Below are positions 16,701 through 53,506 of a DNA stretch of 64,000 nucleotides, piece by piece. Under the pieces are notes generated by a model. The model did no database searches, was not told the origin of the DNA, and saw only the letters and a program-made list of their open reading frames with translations. The stretch's first letter is position 1, and each line of letters begins with the position of its first letter. Made by a program: the position numbers and the translations under genes. The stretch comes from an uncultured Pelagibacteraceae bacterium (lineage in GTDB: Bacteria > Pseudomonadota > Alphaproteobacteria > Pelagibacterales > Pelagibacteraceae): contig CACGON010000001.1 in NCBI GenBank assembly GCA_902574695.1, forward strand, positions 1 through 64,000, written 5' to 3'.

Positions 16701-17786
16701 TTAATTTAAATTAAACCCCTTATCAGCAAATTCCATTAAAATATTTTTTAGTTTTTGATTTTTATTTATTAAAATTGGAATTTTATTAGAAATCTTATTT
16801 TTTATTACCGAGTCAATTCTGAATATATTTTCAATTAGATTTATACCGTTTGAATACAATAAATTATATGGTTTTGTCTTGTTCTCAAAATGTTTATTAA
16901 AATTTTCGTTAATTGGTAAACCTAAACTTTTTAATTTACATATCTCTTTCACTAAAATCTTTAAATCTCTTAATGTCATATTAAAACCTTGTCCTGCTAA
17001 AGGATGAATTCTATGGAGGTTATTTCCGAATAGGAGGATATTTTTATAATAATATTTTCTAGCAGACTCAAATATTAAATCGGCTTTTTCAATTTTAGAA
17101 ACACTTGTTATTGAATAAAGTTTATTGTAGTTTTTTACAATCTTTACTATTTCAGAGTTATTTATTAATTTTTTATTTTTATAAATAGAAAAAACAACAG
17201 ATGTTTGAAAATTAGATAGTGGTAAGAAAGCAAGTGGTCCATATTTAGTAAAGATTTGAGTTGCTTTATGATTTTGTATTTTCTTATGCTTTAGTAAAAA
17301 TGTATATGCAACACTTTTATAATCTTTATAAAATTTTTTGTTAAAAAAATTCTTATTATAAAAATTATTATTTTCACAGTTTATTATAAGTTCATTTTTG
17401 CTTTTGTTTAATAAATTTTCGTAAAATTTTGAATTTTTTATCTCTATAAATTTTATTTTTTTCAAACTTTTTTTAAGAACTTTTATTAAATCATTATTTT
17501 TAATTAAAAATATAAGGTTCTGTTTTTTTTTAAAATTAAGAATTTCATCATTTTTATTTTGTTCATTTAGTATTGAAATCTCATTTACTGGATTAATAAG
17601 ATTTTTAGGGATAACAAAATTTTTATCTAAAAATTTGAGATTTTCACGCGTGATCGCAATACACCTGTTAGATTTAATATTATAGGTTTTTTTTTTATGA
17701 AATATTTGAGTATTTATATTTTTATTAGCTAAAGATTTAGCTAAAATTAAACTAGTAAGATTATTTCCTATTATACTTATTTTCAT
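16701..17786 (-). CDS. UbiH/UbiF/COQ6-family FAD monooxygenase, divergent
   Basis: This 361-residue protein resembles ubiquinone-ring hydroxylases. The best signature is GNNLHRIHPLAGQGFNMTLRDLKIL, about 75% along, equivalent to the second FAD motif of UbiH. The N-terminal dinucleotide motif is unusually degraded: GNNLTS replaces GxGxxG. The ATG at 17786 gives MKISIIGNN, the normal N-terminus; an upstream TTG at 17807 is less likely. If active, it would hydroxylate the ubiquinone ring, but the weakened FAD loop makes function less certain. It is divergent from ftsK. Confidence 0.85.
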   Translation of the reverse strand: MKISIIGNNLTSLILAKSLANKNINTQIFHKKKTYNIKSNRCIAITRENLKFLDKNFVIPKNLINPVNEISILNEQNKNDEILNFKKKQNLIFLIKNNDLIKVLKKSLKKIKFIEIKNSKFYENLLNKSKNELIINCENNNFYNKNFFNKKFYKDYKSVAYTFLLKHKKIQNHKATQIFTKYGPLAFLPLSNFQTSVVFSIYKNKKLINNSEIVKIVKNYNKLYSITSVSKIEKADLIFESARKYYYKNILLFGNNLHRIHPLAGQGFNMTLRDLKILVKEICKLKSLGLPINENFNKHFENKTKPYNLLYSNGINLIENIFRIDSVIKNKISNKIPILINKNQKLKNILMEFADKGFNLN

Positions 17787-33274: not shown

Positions 33275-33855
33275 TTAAGATTAACCAAATATTCTTTTAT
33301 TTTTTTTATTGGTAATCCCATTATGGTATCCACATCTCCTTCAATGTTTGAGAACAGATTTTTTCCCTCACCTTCTATTTGGTATACATTATATGCAAAT
33401 AGTTTTTCATCATCTATTTTCGATAGGTATAATTTTAGTTCATCATCTGACATTTTTTTCATCGTGAGTTTTGCTTTGTCTGTATGTTTCCATATCATAG
33501 AGCCGTTTTTTGATATACATACTGAGCTAATTAAATAATGGCTTTTTCCATTTAACTTTTTTAAAATTTCAAGCGCTTCGTTCCGATCTTTTGGCTTAGA
33601 TATAATTTTTTTATTTAAATCAATAACACTATCAGCACCAATAACTATTTTATTTGAATTTTTTTGACTTATTTTATTTGCCTTTAATTGAGCCAAATTA
33701 ATGCTTACATCCTCTGGGTGTGCGCCGTCTTTTAGCATTGAGTTTTTTATTTCATCTTCATCAACATTAGAGGGCTCTGGCACACATTTTATATTATTTT
33801 TACTCAAAATTTCTAATCTTACTTTACTTTTTGATGCTAAAATTATTTCATCCAT
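33271..33855 (-). CDS. maf: Maf-type nucleotide pyrophosphatase
   Basis: This 194-residue Maf protein hydrolyses non-canonical or surplus NTPs and affects septation in other bacteria. Signatures are ILASKSKVRLEIL at the N-terminus, the catalytic Asp in VIGADSVI, SKPKDRNEALEILKKLNGKSH and YQIEGEGKNLFSNIEGD. The subtype (dTTP/UTP or m7GTP) is not clear. It overlaps ppsR by eight bases. Confidence 0.94.
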   Translation of the reverse strand: MDEIILASKSKVRLEILSKNNIKCVPEPSNVDEDEIKNSMLKDGAHPEDVSINLAQLKANKISQKNSNKIVIGADSVIDLNKKIISKPKDRNEALEILKKLNGKSHYLISSVCISKNGSMIWKHTDKAKLTMKKMSDDELKLYLSKIDDEKLFAYNVYQIEGEGKNLFSNIEGDVDTIMGLPIKKIKEYLVNLK

Positions 33856-34672
33856 TTTTTTTACTTATTTCATAAATTTTTATCACTGATGCGGCGGTCT
33901 CCTCAACGGATTTTCTGCTAACATCTATGGTAGGCCATTTATATTTTTGAAAGGTTTTTTTTGCATTATTTACTTCTTTAGAAATTTTTTCTAAATCTAT
34001 ATAATTGTTAGATGAGTTTTCGTTTAATAAATTCATTCTATTTTTTCTAATTTCAACTAATCTGTTCGGTTCAGCTGTCAGTCCTATTATGCATTTATTA
34101 GTTTTTTTTTCTTTAAGGATTTTGGGTATTGAATTTTCATTCACCAAAGGAATGTTAGATACTTTAAATCCTTTGTTTGCCAAATAAATCGAGGTTGGTG
34201 TTTTGCTCGTTCTGCTAACACCAAGTAGTATTATATCAGACTTGGTTATATCTCCTGTTAAATTTCCGTCATCATGGTTCATAGTAAATTGTATTGCTTC
34301 TATCCTTTTATAGTATTCTTCATTCAAAGCATGTTGACCACTTGGTTTATAAGATGCCTCTTGTTTGAGAAGTTTTGAAAAGCTTATTATTAAATCTCCA
34401 AGCACTCCAAAACAGGGTATATTTTTTTTCTTAGCTTCGTTACTTAAAAATCTAGATAAATTATTATCGACTATAGTATAAAGAATTATTGTATTTTTTA
34501 TTTTCTCAGAATTTTCTAAAATTTTAATTACTTGGTTTTCTGTTCTTGTAAAGGAAAAATGACTTGCATCATATTTAAAATTTTTAAACTGTGCCTTAAG
34601 CGCTAAAAATATTCTATCTAAGGTTTCACCTGTAGAGTCAGATATTAGGTATATGTTATATGGATTACTCAT
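33848..34672 (-). CDS. PEP synthase/PPDK regulatory kinase-phosphorylase
   Basis: This 274-residue DUF299 protein is a bifunctional ADP-dependent Ser/Thr kinase and Pi-dependent phosphorylase that switches pyruvate phosphate dikinase or PEP synthase on and off. The phosphate-binding loop is LLGVSRTSKTPTSIYLANKG, the N-terminus reads IYLISDSTGETL, and HALNEEYYKRIEAIQFTMNHDDG is present. It is the first gene leftward from the proposed origin, facing hemE across the 282-base gap. The target kinase is not in the window. Confidence 0.94.
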   Translation of the reverse strand: MSNPYNIYLISDSTGETLDRIFLALKAQFKNFKYDASHFSFTRTENQVIKILENSEKIKNTIILYTIVDNNLSRFLSNEAKKKNIPCFGVLGDLIISFSKLLKQEASYKPSGQHALNEEYYKRIEAIQFTMNHDDGNLTGDITKSDIILLGVSRTSKTPTSIYLANKGFKVSNIPLVNENSIPKILKEKKTNKCIIGLTAEPNRLVEIRKNRMNLLNENSSNNYIDLEKISKEVNNAKKTFQKYKWPTIDVSRKSVEETAASVIKIYEISKKNG

Positions 34673-34954
34673 GTATAATTATGTTTATAAATAATTAATA
34701 ATAAACTTATTTAATTAAAATTTGAATAATATTGTTAATCTAATGAAAAACAGTGGTTTAATTAACAATTTTAAACATGTTTATAAACTTTATTTAATTT
34801 TGTTAATAAATATAAAACTATTTAATAACTATCATTTTCTTAAAGGTTTTTTTAAAATGTAGTGTGGATAGATCATGTAAAAATAGTTAATAAAATTTAA
34901 TTAACATTATTAACATAGCAATGAACTAATACTATACTTAAATATTATTTATTT
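34673..34954. other. Candidate chromosome replication origin (oriC)
   Basis: This is the largest gene-free stretch in the window, extremely AT-rich, lying between divergent ppsR and hemE. Caulobacter and Rickettsia place oriC beside hemE. Genes on the left run left and genes on the right mostly run right, and parS with parAB is 8 kb away. The stretch holds six TTAAC/GTTAA units (34734, 34762, 34802, 34886, 34901, 34910), several TTATAAAC-like sequences, and one near-consensus DnaA box. It must also contain the promoters of ppsR and hemE. The origin assignment is inference from context. Confidence 0.6.
34863..34871 (-). promoter_or_regulatory. Near-consensus DnaA box
   Basis: TGTGGATAG on the plus strand reads CTATCCACA on the minus strand, one mismatch from the DnaA consensus TTATCCACA. 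It lies inside the proposed origin. Being alone, it is only modest support; other copies there are weaker (TTATAAACT, TTATAAATA). Confidence 0.5.
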
Positions 34955-35956
34955 ATGAGTCTAATAAGAAGATGTATTGTTGAAAAAGAAACGACAGCAA
35001 ATCCTATATGGTTAATGAGACAAGCTGGAAGATATTTACCTGAATTTAGAAAAATTAGATCACAAAATGAAAACTTTGTTGATCTATGCTTAAATACAAA
35101 CCTTGTGCCGGAAATAACATTACAACCACTAAAGAGATTCAATATAGATGCAGCTATAATATTTTCAGATATTTTAATGATTCCATATGGACTTGGTCAA
35201 AAAGTAAACTTTACAAAAGGATTAGGTCCTGAGCTTGGTATTATAAATCAAGAAATTATATCTAATATTAATAAAATTGACTTTGAAGAAAAATTAAAGC
35301 CTGTTTACGATTCTATTAATAAGGTTTCAAATAATCCAATCCTAAAAAATAAAGATTTAATAGGTTTTGTTGGAGCTCCTTGGACACTTTTAGTTTACAT
35401 GATAAATAGATATTCACCCAAAAAAAATATTAATAAAGTTTTTTTCAAAGATAAAAAATTAATTGATAATATAATTGAAATCTTAGTAAAATACATAAAA
35501 TTACATATATATAATCAGGTTAAAAGTGGAGCATCTATAATTCAAATATTCGATAGTTGGGCAGGTCTATTAACAGATAAAGATTTAGAAAAATATATAT
35601 ATTTACCCACTAAGGAAATAACTGATTATACCAAAACACTTAAAATCCCAGTAATATGTTTTCCAAGAAATATTAAAAACTACAAGAAATTTGTTGATAT
35701 TGTTAATCCAGATGCAATTAACATTGATTATAATGTTGAACCAGAGCAAATTTTAAATGATATTGATATTCCAATTCAAGGAGGTATTCATCCAAAAATG
35801 CTATTAACAGATAAAATAACTTTAAAAAAAGAAGTCTTAAAATTTAAAAGAATTTTTGAAAATCACCCATATATATTTAATTTAGGTCATGGTGTGCTGC
35901 CAGAAACAGATCCTGATATGGTTGAATATTTAATTAAGTTTGTAAAAGATAATTAA
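34955..35956 (+). CDS. hemE: Uroporphyrinogen decarboxylase
   Basis: HemE decarboxylates uroporphyrinogen III to coproporphyrinogen III. The 333-residue protein shows PIWLMRQAGRYLPEFRKIR near the N-terminus, the catalytic Asp in FSDILMIPYGLGQKV, FVGAPWTLL and GHGVLPETDPD. It starts the hemE-hemH-hemJ-rho run to the right of the proposed origin, the same neighbour as in other alphaproteobacterial origins. Confidence 0.97.
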   Translation: MSLIRRCIVEKETTANPIWLMRQAGRYLPEFRKIRSQNENFVDLCLNTNLVPEITLQPLKRFNIDAAIIFSDILMIPYGLGQKVNFTKGLGPELGIINQEIISNINKIDFEEKLKPVYDSINKVSNNPILKNKDLIGFVGAPWTLLVYMINRYSPKKNINKVFFKDKKLIDNIIEILVKYIKLHIYNQVKSGASIIQIFDSWAGLLTDKDLEKYIYLPTKEITDYTKTLKIPVICFPRNIKNYKKFVDIVNPDAINIDYNVEPEQILNDIDIPIQGGIHPKMLLTDKITLKKEVLKFKRIFENHPYIFNLGHGVLPETDPDMVEYLIKFVKDN

Positions 35957-38742: not shown

Positions 38743-39579
38743 TTAAATATAATCTAATTCCCTCATCTCTTTTTGGAAGTTGGTTTCGATATTTTTGATC
38801 ATTTGAGGGTTAAGAGTTTGTTCCCAATCCCCTATTATCCCTTTTCTAAAAAATTTATCTCCACTTCCCAACTCTTTAAAACCAGCTTTATTTTCCATTT
38901 CTCTCAAGTTTTGAAAAGATGTGTCCTGAATAGCTTTCTTAATTTTGCTTTCATCGATGTTAAAAGATAAGAAAAGATTTAGATACTTCAGTATTTTTAA
39001 AAATGTATTCTCCGGCTTCTTTATCATATCCTCATACCTTACTAAATGTATTTTTTTTTCTTGATAATATCTCCAAGAATTATAGTTACTTGACCATGTT
39101 CCCATTATTGAATTTCTAAATCCATTGGTTAAATTTTTGTCATAGAACTCATAATTTTGCATATTATTCATATTGTTGAATGCCTGTTCATAAGTTATGT
39201 TAAAATGGTTAGATAGTGATAAAACTACATCTCTAGGATCTCTAACAATATATATTCCCCCTATCGTATTTTTACTGTTAGTAAAGGGATAACCATTAAT
39301 GTTAAAATTGCCATTGTGAGTTTTTAAGAAATTAACTTTGTTATTTAAATTTATGTAAATTTGAAGGTTAATCCAATTTTTGACTATCTCTTCAAATTTA
39401 TTGTAGTTAATTTCATTTTCCCTGAGTAAATCAATGTTCGGAAAAGCTTTTGCCTCATAATCATCATTACCCTCCTCATTAATTGAAAATTTTTTGTCGT
39501 TAGGCAAAAAATATGCCCTGAGAAACATTCTTAACCAAGTATTTCCACTTTTTGGGTATGATGCTAGCCAAATTATCAT
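38743..39579 (-). CDS. Sulfotransferase-domain protein
   Basis: This 278-residue cytoplasmic sulfotransferase shows the 5'-phosphosulfate loop YPKSGNTW (residues 8-15) and the 3'-phosphate motif IVRDPRDVVLSLSNH, and ends with a WEQTLNPQMI segment like the family RKGxxGDWK region (here FFRKGIIGDWEQ). It should transfer sulfate from PAPS to an unknown hydroxyl or amine acceptor, perhaps a surface glycan or lipid. It lies on the opposite strand between rho and mnmE, interrupting an otherwise conserved housekeeping block, which suggests later insertion. Base composition matches its surroundings. Confidence 0.92.
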   Translation of the reverse strand: MIIWLASYPKSGNTWLRMFLRAYFLPNDKKFSINEEGNDDYEAKAFPNIDLLRENEINYNKFEEIVKNWINLQIYINLNNKVNFLKTHNGNFNINGYPFTNSKNTIGGIYIVRDPRDVVLSLSNHFNITYEQAFNNMNNMQNYEFYDKNLTNGFRNSIMGTWSSNYNSWRYYQEKKIHLVRYEDMIKKPENTFLKILKYLNLFLSFNIDESKIKKAIQDTSFQNLREMENKAGFKELGSGDKFFRKGIIGDWEQTLNPQMIKNIETNFQKEMRELDYI

Positions 39580-42947: not shown

Positions 42948-43582
42948 TAAATTCAAACATATTACAATATTCTGTATTAGAGCCACTAAATGTTTCACGT
43001 GAAACATTTAAGGATTTTGAGGAATTTAGGTCGCTTATAATATCAAGAAACAAAAAAATAAATTTAATAAGCAAATCAACAGAAGAAAAAGCAAAAGAAA
43101 GACATATAATAGATAGTGCTCAAATAGTTGATTTTATTGATAAAAATGAGGAAACATGCACAGATATTGGCTCAGGACCGGGATTACCAGGAATAGTTAT
43201 TGCAATTATCATGAAGCATAAAAGAATTCCAATGAAATTTAATTTATATGAAAAAAGTTTTAGAAAAGCAGAGTTTTTAGAAGAGGTAATAAAAAAATTA
43301 AAATTGAATGCTGAAGTATTTCAAAAAAATATATTTCAGCAAAAAAATTTAATCACAGATACTATAGTTGCAAGAGCCTTTAAACCATTACCTACTATTT
43401 TAGAATTGGCTAATAGCAATTTTAAAAATTTTAAAAGTATAATTTTATTTTTAGGACAAGCCAAAAATAATGATGTGCAACAGTGTTCAAAAAAATGGAG
43501 CTTTGAATACAAAGAAAAAAAAAGTCTTACAAATGCAGAGTCAAAAATATTAAAAATTTATAATTTAAAGAAAAAAAAATGA
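42944..43582 (+). CDS. rsmG: 16S rRNA (guanine-527-N7)-methyltransferase RsmG
   Basis: RsmG methylates G527 of 16S rRNA with SAM. The 212-residue protein has [14 protein letters not shown] at residues 15-28 and the SAM motif [15 protein letters not shown]. The first usable start is TTG at 42944, overlapping the mnmG stop (TTGA); no in-frame ATG occurs near the N-terminus. The codons for NVSRET contain a complete parS site, so this stretch does double duty. It overlaps parA by four bases. Confidence 0.95.
42991..43006. other. parS: parS centromere site inside rsmG
   Basis: TGTTTCACGTGAAACA is a perfect 16-base palindrome identical to the canonical bacterial parS bound by ParB. It sits in the rsmG coding region, about 590 bases before parA and 8 kb from the proposed origin. 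Chance occurrence of a 16-mer in 64 kb is negligible, and the nearby parAB genes confirm the role. Confidence 0.95.
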
Positions 43583-44379
43583 AAACAAAAATAATTTCTG
43601 TAATTAATCAAAAGGGTGGAGTCGGCAAAACAACAACGGTCATAAATTTGGCAGCTGGACTCTCGCTCCAAAAAAGAAAAGTATTAGTGATTGATCTCGA
43701 TCCGCAAGGAAATGCAACTACTGGGCTTGGACTCTCAAACAACGATACCTCTGAGGGTACTATCTATAGTGTCTTAAATGGGTCTTCCAAAATAAGTGAT
43801 GTTATAAGAAAAACGAATTTCAATAACCTCGAAATAATTACTTCGAACGTTGATTTATCAGGTTTAGAGGTGGAAACGGCTGGCGATACAAGAAGGGCAT
43901 TTATTTTAAAGGACGAATTAACCGCATATTTAAAGGATTCTAGATCAGATTATTCACATATACTGATTGATTGCCCACCTTCACTAAGCTTGCTAACTGT
44001 AATGGCTCTCGTTGCTTCAAATTCCTTAATTGTACCACTTCAAACAGAGTTTTTTGCCTTGGAGGGTATTACACAGTTAATCAAAACTATAGATCGTATT
44101 AAAAGTAATTTAAATCCAGATTTATCAATAAGAGGTATACTGCTAACAATGTACGATAAAAGAAATAAACTTTCTTCTCAGGTAGAAAAAGAAGCAAGAG
44201 ACTATTTTAAAGATCAAGTCTATCAAACTATAGTGCCCAGAAATGTAAGGCTTTCCGAAGCACCTTCTCATGGAATACCAGTACTAATATATGATAAAGC
44301 ATGTCCAGGTAGCAAATCGTATATAACTTTTACAGAAGAATTTTTAAAACAGGACAATAAATTAGAAAGTGCAGCTTGA
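43579..44379 (+). CDS. parA: Chromosome partitioning ATPase ParA
   Basis: ParA binds DNA non-specifically in its ATP form and moves ParB-parS complexes. The 266-residue protein has the deviant Walker A NQKGGVGKTTT (10-20), VLVIDLDPQGNATTG, HILIDCPPSLSLLT and PRNVRLSEAPSHGIPV. It is short at the N-terminus, as in chromosomal (type Ib-like) ParA. Its stop overlaps the parB start (TGATG). Confidence 0.97.
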   Translation: MKTKIISVINQKGGVGKTTTVINLAAGLSLQKRKVLVIDLDPQGNATTGLGLSNNDTSEGTIYSVLNGSSKISDVIRKTNFNNLEIITSNVDLSGLEVETAGDTRRAFILKDELTAYLKDSRSDYSHILIDCPPSLSLLTVMALVASNSLIVPLQTEFFALEGITQLIKTIDRIKSNLNPDLSIRGILLTMYDKRNKLSSQVEKEARDYFKDQVYQTIVPRNVRLSEAPSHGIPVLIYDKACPGSKSYITFTEEFLKQDNKLESAA

Positions 44380-45227
44380 TGAACCCATTTAAATCAAAAA
44401 AAGGTTTAGGACGAGGTTTATCGTCATTAATTGGGGATGTTAAAAAAACTACCACAAATAGTAAACTATCAATAAGTGAAATTGTTAGAGGCAAATTACA
44501 GCCAAGAAAAAATTTTGACAAAGAAAATTTAGAAGATCTAACAAATTCAATTAGGGAAAGAGGTGTAGTCCAGCCAATCATTGTAAGAAAATCCAAAGAG
44601 ATAAATAACAAATACGAAATTATAGCAGGAGAGCGAAGGTGGTTGGCTTCCCAAAATGCAGGTCTTAATGAAATTCCGGCCGTAATAATTGAAGCAGATG
44701 ATCTTAAATCTCTAGAATTTGCAATAGTTGAAAACGTTCAAAGACATGACCTTAATCCTATAGAGGAAGCTCACGGTTATAAAAGATTGATGGATGAGTT
44801 CGGTTATGATCAAGAAAAGGTTGCAAAATTTATAGGCAAAAGCCGTGCTCATATTGCAAACTGCTTAAGGTTATTATCTTTACCTGCTAAAGTTATTGAG
44901 TTTGTAGAAAAAAATGAGCTATCGCAAGGACACGCTAAAATTTTGGTGGGATTAGAAAACTCTTTTTTAATAGCAAAAAAAATAATAGATAAAAAATTAT
45001 CAGTCCGACAATCTGAAAATTTAGTAAGATTGTTTAAAAACCCTTATAAAAAAAAGGGTAGTCCTAAATCTGCAAACATAAGAGACTTGGAGGATATGCT
45101 TAAAGATAAATTAGGCATTAGAGTTTCCATAAACAATAAAAAAAATAATAAAGGTTTAATATCTTTCGAGTATTCTGATTTAGATCAATTAAATAGATTA
45201 ATTGAAATTATAAAATCTAACTACTAA
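44379..45227 (+). CDS. parB: Chromosome partitioning protein ParB
   Basis: ParB is the CTP-dependent clamp that loads at parS and spreads. The 282-residue protein has GLGRGLSSLIGD at the N-terminus (ParA-stimulating region), the CTP-binding segments IAGERRWLASQNAGL and ENVQRHDLNPIEEAHGYKRLM, and a helix-turn-helix around GYDQEKVAKFIGKSRAHIANCLRLL. A dimerisation domain ends the protein. I take ATG at 44379, overlapping the parA stop by one base, over a TTG one codon earlier. Confidence 0.96.
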   Translation: MNPFKSKKGLGRGLSSLIGDVKKTTTNSKLSISEIVRGKLQPRKNFDKENLEDLTNSIRERGVVQPIIVRKSKEINNKYEIIAGERRWLASQNAGLNEIPAVIIEADDLKSLEFAIVENVQRHDLNPIEEAHGYKRLMDEFGYDQEKVAKFIGKSRAHIANCLRLLSLPAKVIEFVEKNELSQGHAKILVGLENSFLIAKKIIDKKLSVRQSENLVRLFKNPYKKKGSPKSANIRDLEDMLKDKLGIRVSINNKKNNKGLISFEYSDLDQLNRLIEIIKSNY

Positions 45228-52936: not shown

Positions 52937-53506
52937 ATGTCTAAATCTCAGATTATTATATTAAATTTAAAAGCTTTGTATAATATTCTTTTAGAGCATA
53001 AACAGATACTTCAATTTGATATAATAGCTTGTATAAATGAAAAAGAATTAGTTGAAAAAAAAGATCAAGTTAATCGTGTGGTCATAGCTGATAAAAGCAC
53101 TTCAATGAAAAATTCTGATTCAAAAAATATAATTATTTTAAGTGAATTACCAATAAGATTTGAAGATTTAATAGATAAAATTAATACAAATTTTTTAAGA
53201 CAAAAATATCGCTCTCAATCAAATCTGAGTATTAAAAAATATAAACTTGATTTGAATTCAAGAACTATGTCATATCAAGAAAAAAGTCTAAGATTAACCG
53301 AGAGAGAAATTGAAATAATATTATTTTTAAACAATAAAGGTAATGCCCAAAAGATAGATGTTTTACAAAAAGAGGTTTGGGGGTATTCTGATAATTTAGA
53401 AACACATACTGTTGAAACTCATGTTTATAGATTAAGAAAAAAAATACACGAAATATTTGGTGATGAAGATTTCTTAATAAGTTCTAAAGATGGTTATAAA
53501 ATTTAA
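52937..53506 (+). CDS. OmpR-type winged-helix regulator with degenerate receiver
   Basis: This 189-residue protein has a C-terminal winged helix (about 112-189), with LRLTEREIEIILFLNN, the recognition region EVWGYSDNLETHTVETHVYRLRKKI and GYKI at the end. The N-terminal 100 residues take the place of a receiver domain but show no clear phosphoacceptor Asp or conserved Lys, so activation by a histidine kinase is doubtful. Target genes are unknown. It diverges from the transpeptidase gene after 11 bases, and the ArfA-like gene starts at its stop. Confidence 0.88.
   Translation: MSKSQIIILNLKALYNILLEHKQILQFDIIACINEKELVEKKDQVNRVVIADKSTSMKNSDSKNIIILSELPIRFEDLIDKINTNFLRQKYRSQSNLSIKKYKLDLNSRTMSYQEKSLRLTEREIEIILFLNNKGNAQKIDVLQKEVWGYSDNLETHTVETHVYRLRKKIHEIFGDEDFLISSKDGYKI

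Follow-up and report, generated by a model that had tools for sequence, protein, structure and literature searches.

The 282-bp gap between ppsR and hemE (34673–34954) is, judging from sequence comparisons, very probably the site where replication of this Pelagibacteraceae chromosome starts (oriC), in the place beside hemE and COG1806 that is ancestral in alphaproteobacteria. The original prediction of an origin at this spot is supported by DnaA-box slots conserved among relatives, by the local uniqueness of the box cluster, by a change-point in strand composition located in one complete relative and by the outward orientation of the genes on both sides; parS and parAB also lie nearby. The position itself is ordinary, whereas the A-shifted set of boxes and the absence of CtrA sites are less so.

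The ppsR–hemE gap and its neighbourhood

The window, that is, the whole 64,000-nucleotide stretch that was analysed, is part of a 1.04-Mb genome in 32 contigs, of which contig C1 measures 307 kb. Its hemE is 57–71% identical to those of named Pelagibacteraceae relatives in public collections, one of which is labelled Candidatus Pelagibacter ubique. The gap has 13.8% GC, and its AT content of 86% exceeds the 65–78% found in 2-kb stretches of the window. It had been described as the longest gene-free and the most AT-rich interval. The first part holds inside the window, although the truncated edge at 1–358 is longer; the second does not hold strictly, as a 282-bp segment inside an ORF (17277–17558) is marginally richer in AT (0.869 vs 0.862).

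On the left, the gap is bounded by ppsR (COG1806/DUF299; 33848–34672, minus strand), which scored 305 bits with NF003742 (cutoff 225), and on the right by hemE (34955–35956, plus strand), which scored 306.9 bits with TIGR01464 (cutoff 302.95). As predicted, the strands diverge from the gap: ppsR, maf, aroE, coaE and dnaQ lie leftwards, all on the minus strand, while hemE, hemH, hemJ and rho follow rightwards on the plus strand. A parS site matching the consensus exactly (TGTTTCACGTGAAACA, 42991–43006) and the plus-strand genes parA (43579–44379) and parB (44376–45227), preceded by mnmE, mnmG and rsmG, are located 8–10 kb from the gap, in agreement with the claim that parS–parAB is close. An Rfam scan of 30–40 kb of the window gave no match. 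Between rho and mnmE, a 278-aa ORF (38743–39579, minus strand) runs opposite to its neighbours and had no NCBIfam match.

Conserved DnaA-box slots

We compared the hemE-upstream gap of the window with those of 40 relatives in its genus; all 41 are distinct loci, and the gap measures 264–305 bp in each. A motif-free search for enriched 8-mers ranked TATTCACA, TTATTCAC, TATCAACA, TTATCAAC, TATTAACA and TTATTAAC at the top, and by their sequence these words are putative DnaA boxes whose sixth base is C or A. The relaxed consensus TTATNMACA was fixed after inspection of the sequences, while the 8-mer ranking is independent of that choice. This consensus occurs 118 times in the 41 gaps, compared with 7.5±2.6 in dinucleotide shuffles, and is present in all of them; its sixth base is more often A than C. 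Boxes with G or T at this position (TTATNGACA, TTATNTACA) were not enriched across the 41 gaps.

Aligning the gaps revealed six slots with fixed places and orientations, R1(−), R2(+), R3(−), R4(−), R5(−) and R6(+). Depending on the slot, 59–93% of the sequences carry a box there with at most one mismatch, whereas the other columns average 3.6% and do not exceed 29%. Within the window, the putative box of R1 is TTATAAACA (34682–34690, minus strand; exact in 22 of 41 loci and within one mismatch in 31), followed by R2 with TAATTAACA, which has one mismatch (34759–34767, plus strand; 35 of 41 within one mismatch), and by R3, again with TTATAAACA (34778–34786, minus strand; exact in 16 of 41, 24 within one mismatch). 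R4 carries CTATCCACA (34863–34871, minus strand; 30 of 41 within one mismatch) and coincides with the near-consensus DnaA box noticed originally (TGTGGATAG, one mismatch). In R5 the putative box is TTATTAACT, with one mismatch (34885–34893, minus strand; slot R5b within one mismatch in 26 of 41), and the best conserved slot, R6, holds TTATTAACA (34907–34915, plus strand; exact in 25 of 41, 38 within one mismatch). A weak box, TAATTAACA (34898–34906, plus strand), directly abuts R6, and an extra putative box, TTATTAACA (34801–34809, minus strand), lies outside the conserved slots. Only four boxes in the window's own gap are exact.

The six TTAAC/GTTAA units that had been counted in the gap are indeed there (34734, 34762, 34802, 34886, 34901 and 34910); this number is the maximum per 282 bp in the window (mean 0.78) and is attained nowhere else in it. 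What had been overlooked is that these units mostly lie inside 9-mers resembling DnaA boxes (TTATTAACA or TAATTAACA), as had the further boxes at 34682 and 34778. From their sequence, most of the units are thus best read as cores of AT-shifted DnaA boxes (TTATTAACA) and not as CtrA half-sites.

For the uniqueness of the cluster, which we defined as three or more exact TTATNMACA boxes per 300 bp, we scanned 189 kb of this genome (G000), 742 kb of the complete 1.34-Mb chromosome of a relative of the same genus (G012), 145 kb of G036, and G009. The hemE gap was the sole cluster in the scanned sequence of three of the four genomes (G000, G012 and G036); no cluster of three boxes was found in G009. 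It is also the only cluster in the complete match list of contig C1, and over the full contig together with part of the remaining genome the cluster proved rare or unique, a result obtained only with the relaxed TTATNMACA. Genome-wide, TTATNMACA is not enriched (209 matches vs 214 for the reversed control), and at this genome-wide rate four boxes in 282 bp would be expected about 0.001–0.002 times per genome, by simple arithmetic on non-overlapping windows.

We propose that DnaA binds the six conserved, mostly AT-shifted boxes, which are laid out with R1 at the ppsR edge, the oppositely oriented R2 and R3 in mid-gap, and R4, R5 and R6 at the edge facing hemE. The DnaA complex so formed would then melt the AT-rich spacer between R1 and R2 or that between R3 and R4, forks would depart from the gap in both directions, and ParB at parS, 8 kb away, would segregate the origin. 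In an alignment of the DnaA protein itself with an approximate E. coli reference sequence, both the RDHTT motif and the RPRQ segment are retained. These elements contact the box in the structure of E. coli domain IV, and therefore this DnaA likely recognises its boxes in the ordinary manner.

A possible promoter of hemE, TTAACA–17 nt–TATACT (34910–34938, plus strand), could be recognised from the sequence. It overlaps R6, and therefore DnaA may regulate hemE too. This promoter, along with the divergence of the flanking genes, would also suit a gap that is only the divergent promoter region of ppsR and hemE, with TTAAC and TTATTAACA as promoter or transcription-factor sites. We consider this improbable, since the six slots span about 230 bp with some in mid-gap, the recovered 8-mers match what is expected for DnaA, the composition change-point and the gene divergence coincide with the gap, and a sister family keeps the gap although, in the one genome checked there, another gene takes the place of ppsR.

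Strand composition and the distance to dnaA

Plain GC skew, which had been suggested as a check of the origin, follows gene direction in the sampled stretches of G012 and of contig C1, and once corrected for gene strand, GC skew at fourfold sites revealed nothing linked to replication (p = 0.68). Plain GC skew being uninformative about replication, we turned to the A/T skew at fourfold sites, likewise corrected for gene strand, which has a strong replication component in G012 (permutation p = 0.003, the smallest value attainable with 300 shuffles). In this relative, A/T skew switches at the gap: on a 3-kb grid, the change-point optimum was at 1,261 kb and the gap lies at 1,261.9–1,262.2 kb. 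The change-point is weak in the sampled parts of six other genomes, and its sign differs in some; combined, these six gave a gain of 9.7 at 0 kb and an optimum of 11.5 at +10 kb.

A skew extremum at dnaA, which had been named as evidence against an origin in the gap, was not found with the gene-strand-corrected A/T skew. The dnaA gene is 65 kb from the gap in this genome and 63 kb from it in G012 (at 1,199 kb), where placing the change-point at dnaA worsens the fit by about 10 log units; for the six other genomes combined, the fit is 6 worse. Origins linked to dnaA are common in other bacteria, and the hemE gap could in that case be a cluster for DnaA titration or regulation. Yet in none of 7 genomes did the 300 bp preceding dnaA contain a cluster of boxes, each having at most one box there, and with the change-point fits this makes an origin at dnaA extremely unlikely.

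The usual bias of the leading strand is an excess of keto bases. In G012 the reverse is seen, with an A-rich leading strand and no GC skew, and hence composition alone is unable to separate origin from terminus. Gene direction does separate them, and the outward-pointing genes place the origin at the gap; the outward orientation has the same sense in 7 of 7 genomes. If replication starts at the gap and ends near 590–640 kb, about 64–65% of the coding bp of G012 (64.6%) are on the leading strand. A search for a dif site gave no match with the strict consensus, and the looser consensus matched as often as the reversed control did, so the terminus was not placed. Atypical skews have been noted in low-GC alphaproteobacteria, including Pelagibacter (PMC2031905).

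Known origins and the absence of CtrA sites

The boundary genes match those of known or predicted origins, as had been claimed for Caulobacter and Rickettsia. Cori of Caulobacter crescentus has the same hemE and COG1806 (ppsR) bounds, is also AT-rich and has about five DnaA boxes (PMC1914354), but its boxes are TTATCCACA, whereas those described here are mostly TTATNAACA; in addition, the gap has no CtrA sites, ctrA is reported absent, and no enriched IHF site was found with a rough consensus. The predicted oriC of Rickettsia prowazekii, another low-GC alphaproteobacterium, shares the hemE/COG1806 bounds, although CtrA sites, not found here, served as a criterion in its prediction (PMC1914354). 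The predicted origins of Wolbachia, Ehrlichia and Anaplasma (hemE/COG1253) are likewise AT-rich, on the hemE side and furnished with DnaA boxes, but differ in having COG1253 as neighbour and in that their prediction took CtrA and IHF sites into account (PMC1914354).

Beyond the genus, the hemE-upstream gap is kept in a sister family of the same order (16 genomes, L129–L144), with a length of 276–306 bp. In L132, the one genome of this family that was checked, its neighbour is maf and ppsR is absent from the spot. Exact boxes are fewer there (10 TTATNMACA in 16 genomes), and the box-like blocks CCACCTGTGGATAA and ATACACA are conserved in part of the genomes.

Cori of Caulobacter is under the control of CtrA, whose binding site is TTAA-N7-TTAA (PMC1914354). 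By analogy, the TTAAC/GTTAA units might be half-sites for CtrA through which the origin is kept silent. We regard such a role as very unlikely, as there is no TTAA-N7-TTAA in the window's 282-bp gap and a ctrA orthologue is absent from Pelagibacter according to Brilli et al. (PMC2877005). Across the 41 orthologous gaps, TTAA-N7-TTAA occurs 52 times against 24.6±7.5 in shuffled sequences and in 20 of 41 gaps, which is not a clear signal; GANTC is not enriched in the 41 gaps, and IHF words, searched with a rough consensus, number 4 vs 3.1 expected. None of the four OmpR-family proteins of the genome reaches the cutoff of the CtrA model, which is a Rhodobacterales one (the only CtrA score among the matches listed was 119.6 against a cutoff of 350 bits), and one passes the PhoB cutoff. 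CtrA sites mark the Caulobacter variant and are dispensable for the status of an origin: that of a pseudoscorpion Wolbachia has none (PMC1914354).

Returning to the gap as oriC, we lean, on balance, towards a wider reading in which SAR11 has a CtrA-less origin of the hemE type with boxes preferring TTATNAACA and an unchanged RDHTT in DnaA, so that initiation would run on weak boxes with the usual silencer missing. If true, replication in one of the most abundant bacteria of the ocean would start without the usual silencer of its class, and the gap would be a naturally occurring counterpart of the Caulobacter origin that does without CtrA. No description of a SAR11 oriC was found in the literature searched, which covered few subscription journals and not DoriC. 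A defined SAR11 origin with its box consensus would give replication-rate (peak-to-trough) methods an anchor in the sequence. Basin-scale work on SAR11 set the terminus from coverage (PMC9589681), and one tool for MAGs puts dnaA-bearing fragments at the origin (PMC7852909); placement by dnaA would be 63–65 kb off here.

An orphan OmpR-type protein is encoded within the window (52937–53506, plus strand). Its N-terminal part has no NCBIfam match and its C-terminal part is a Trans_reg_C domain (PF00486); the protein is conserved in G012 and has an orthologue in L179.
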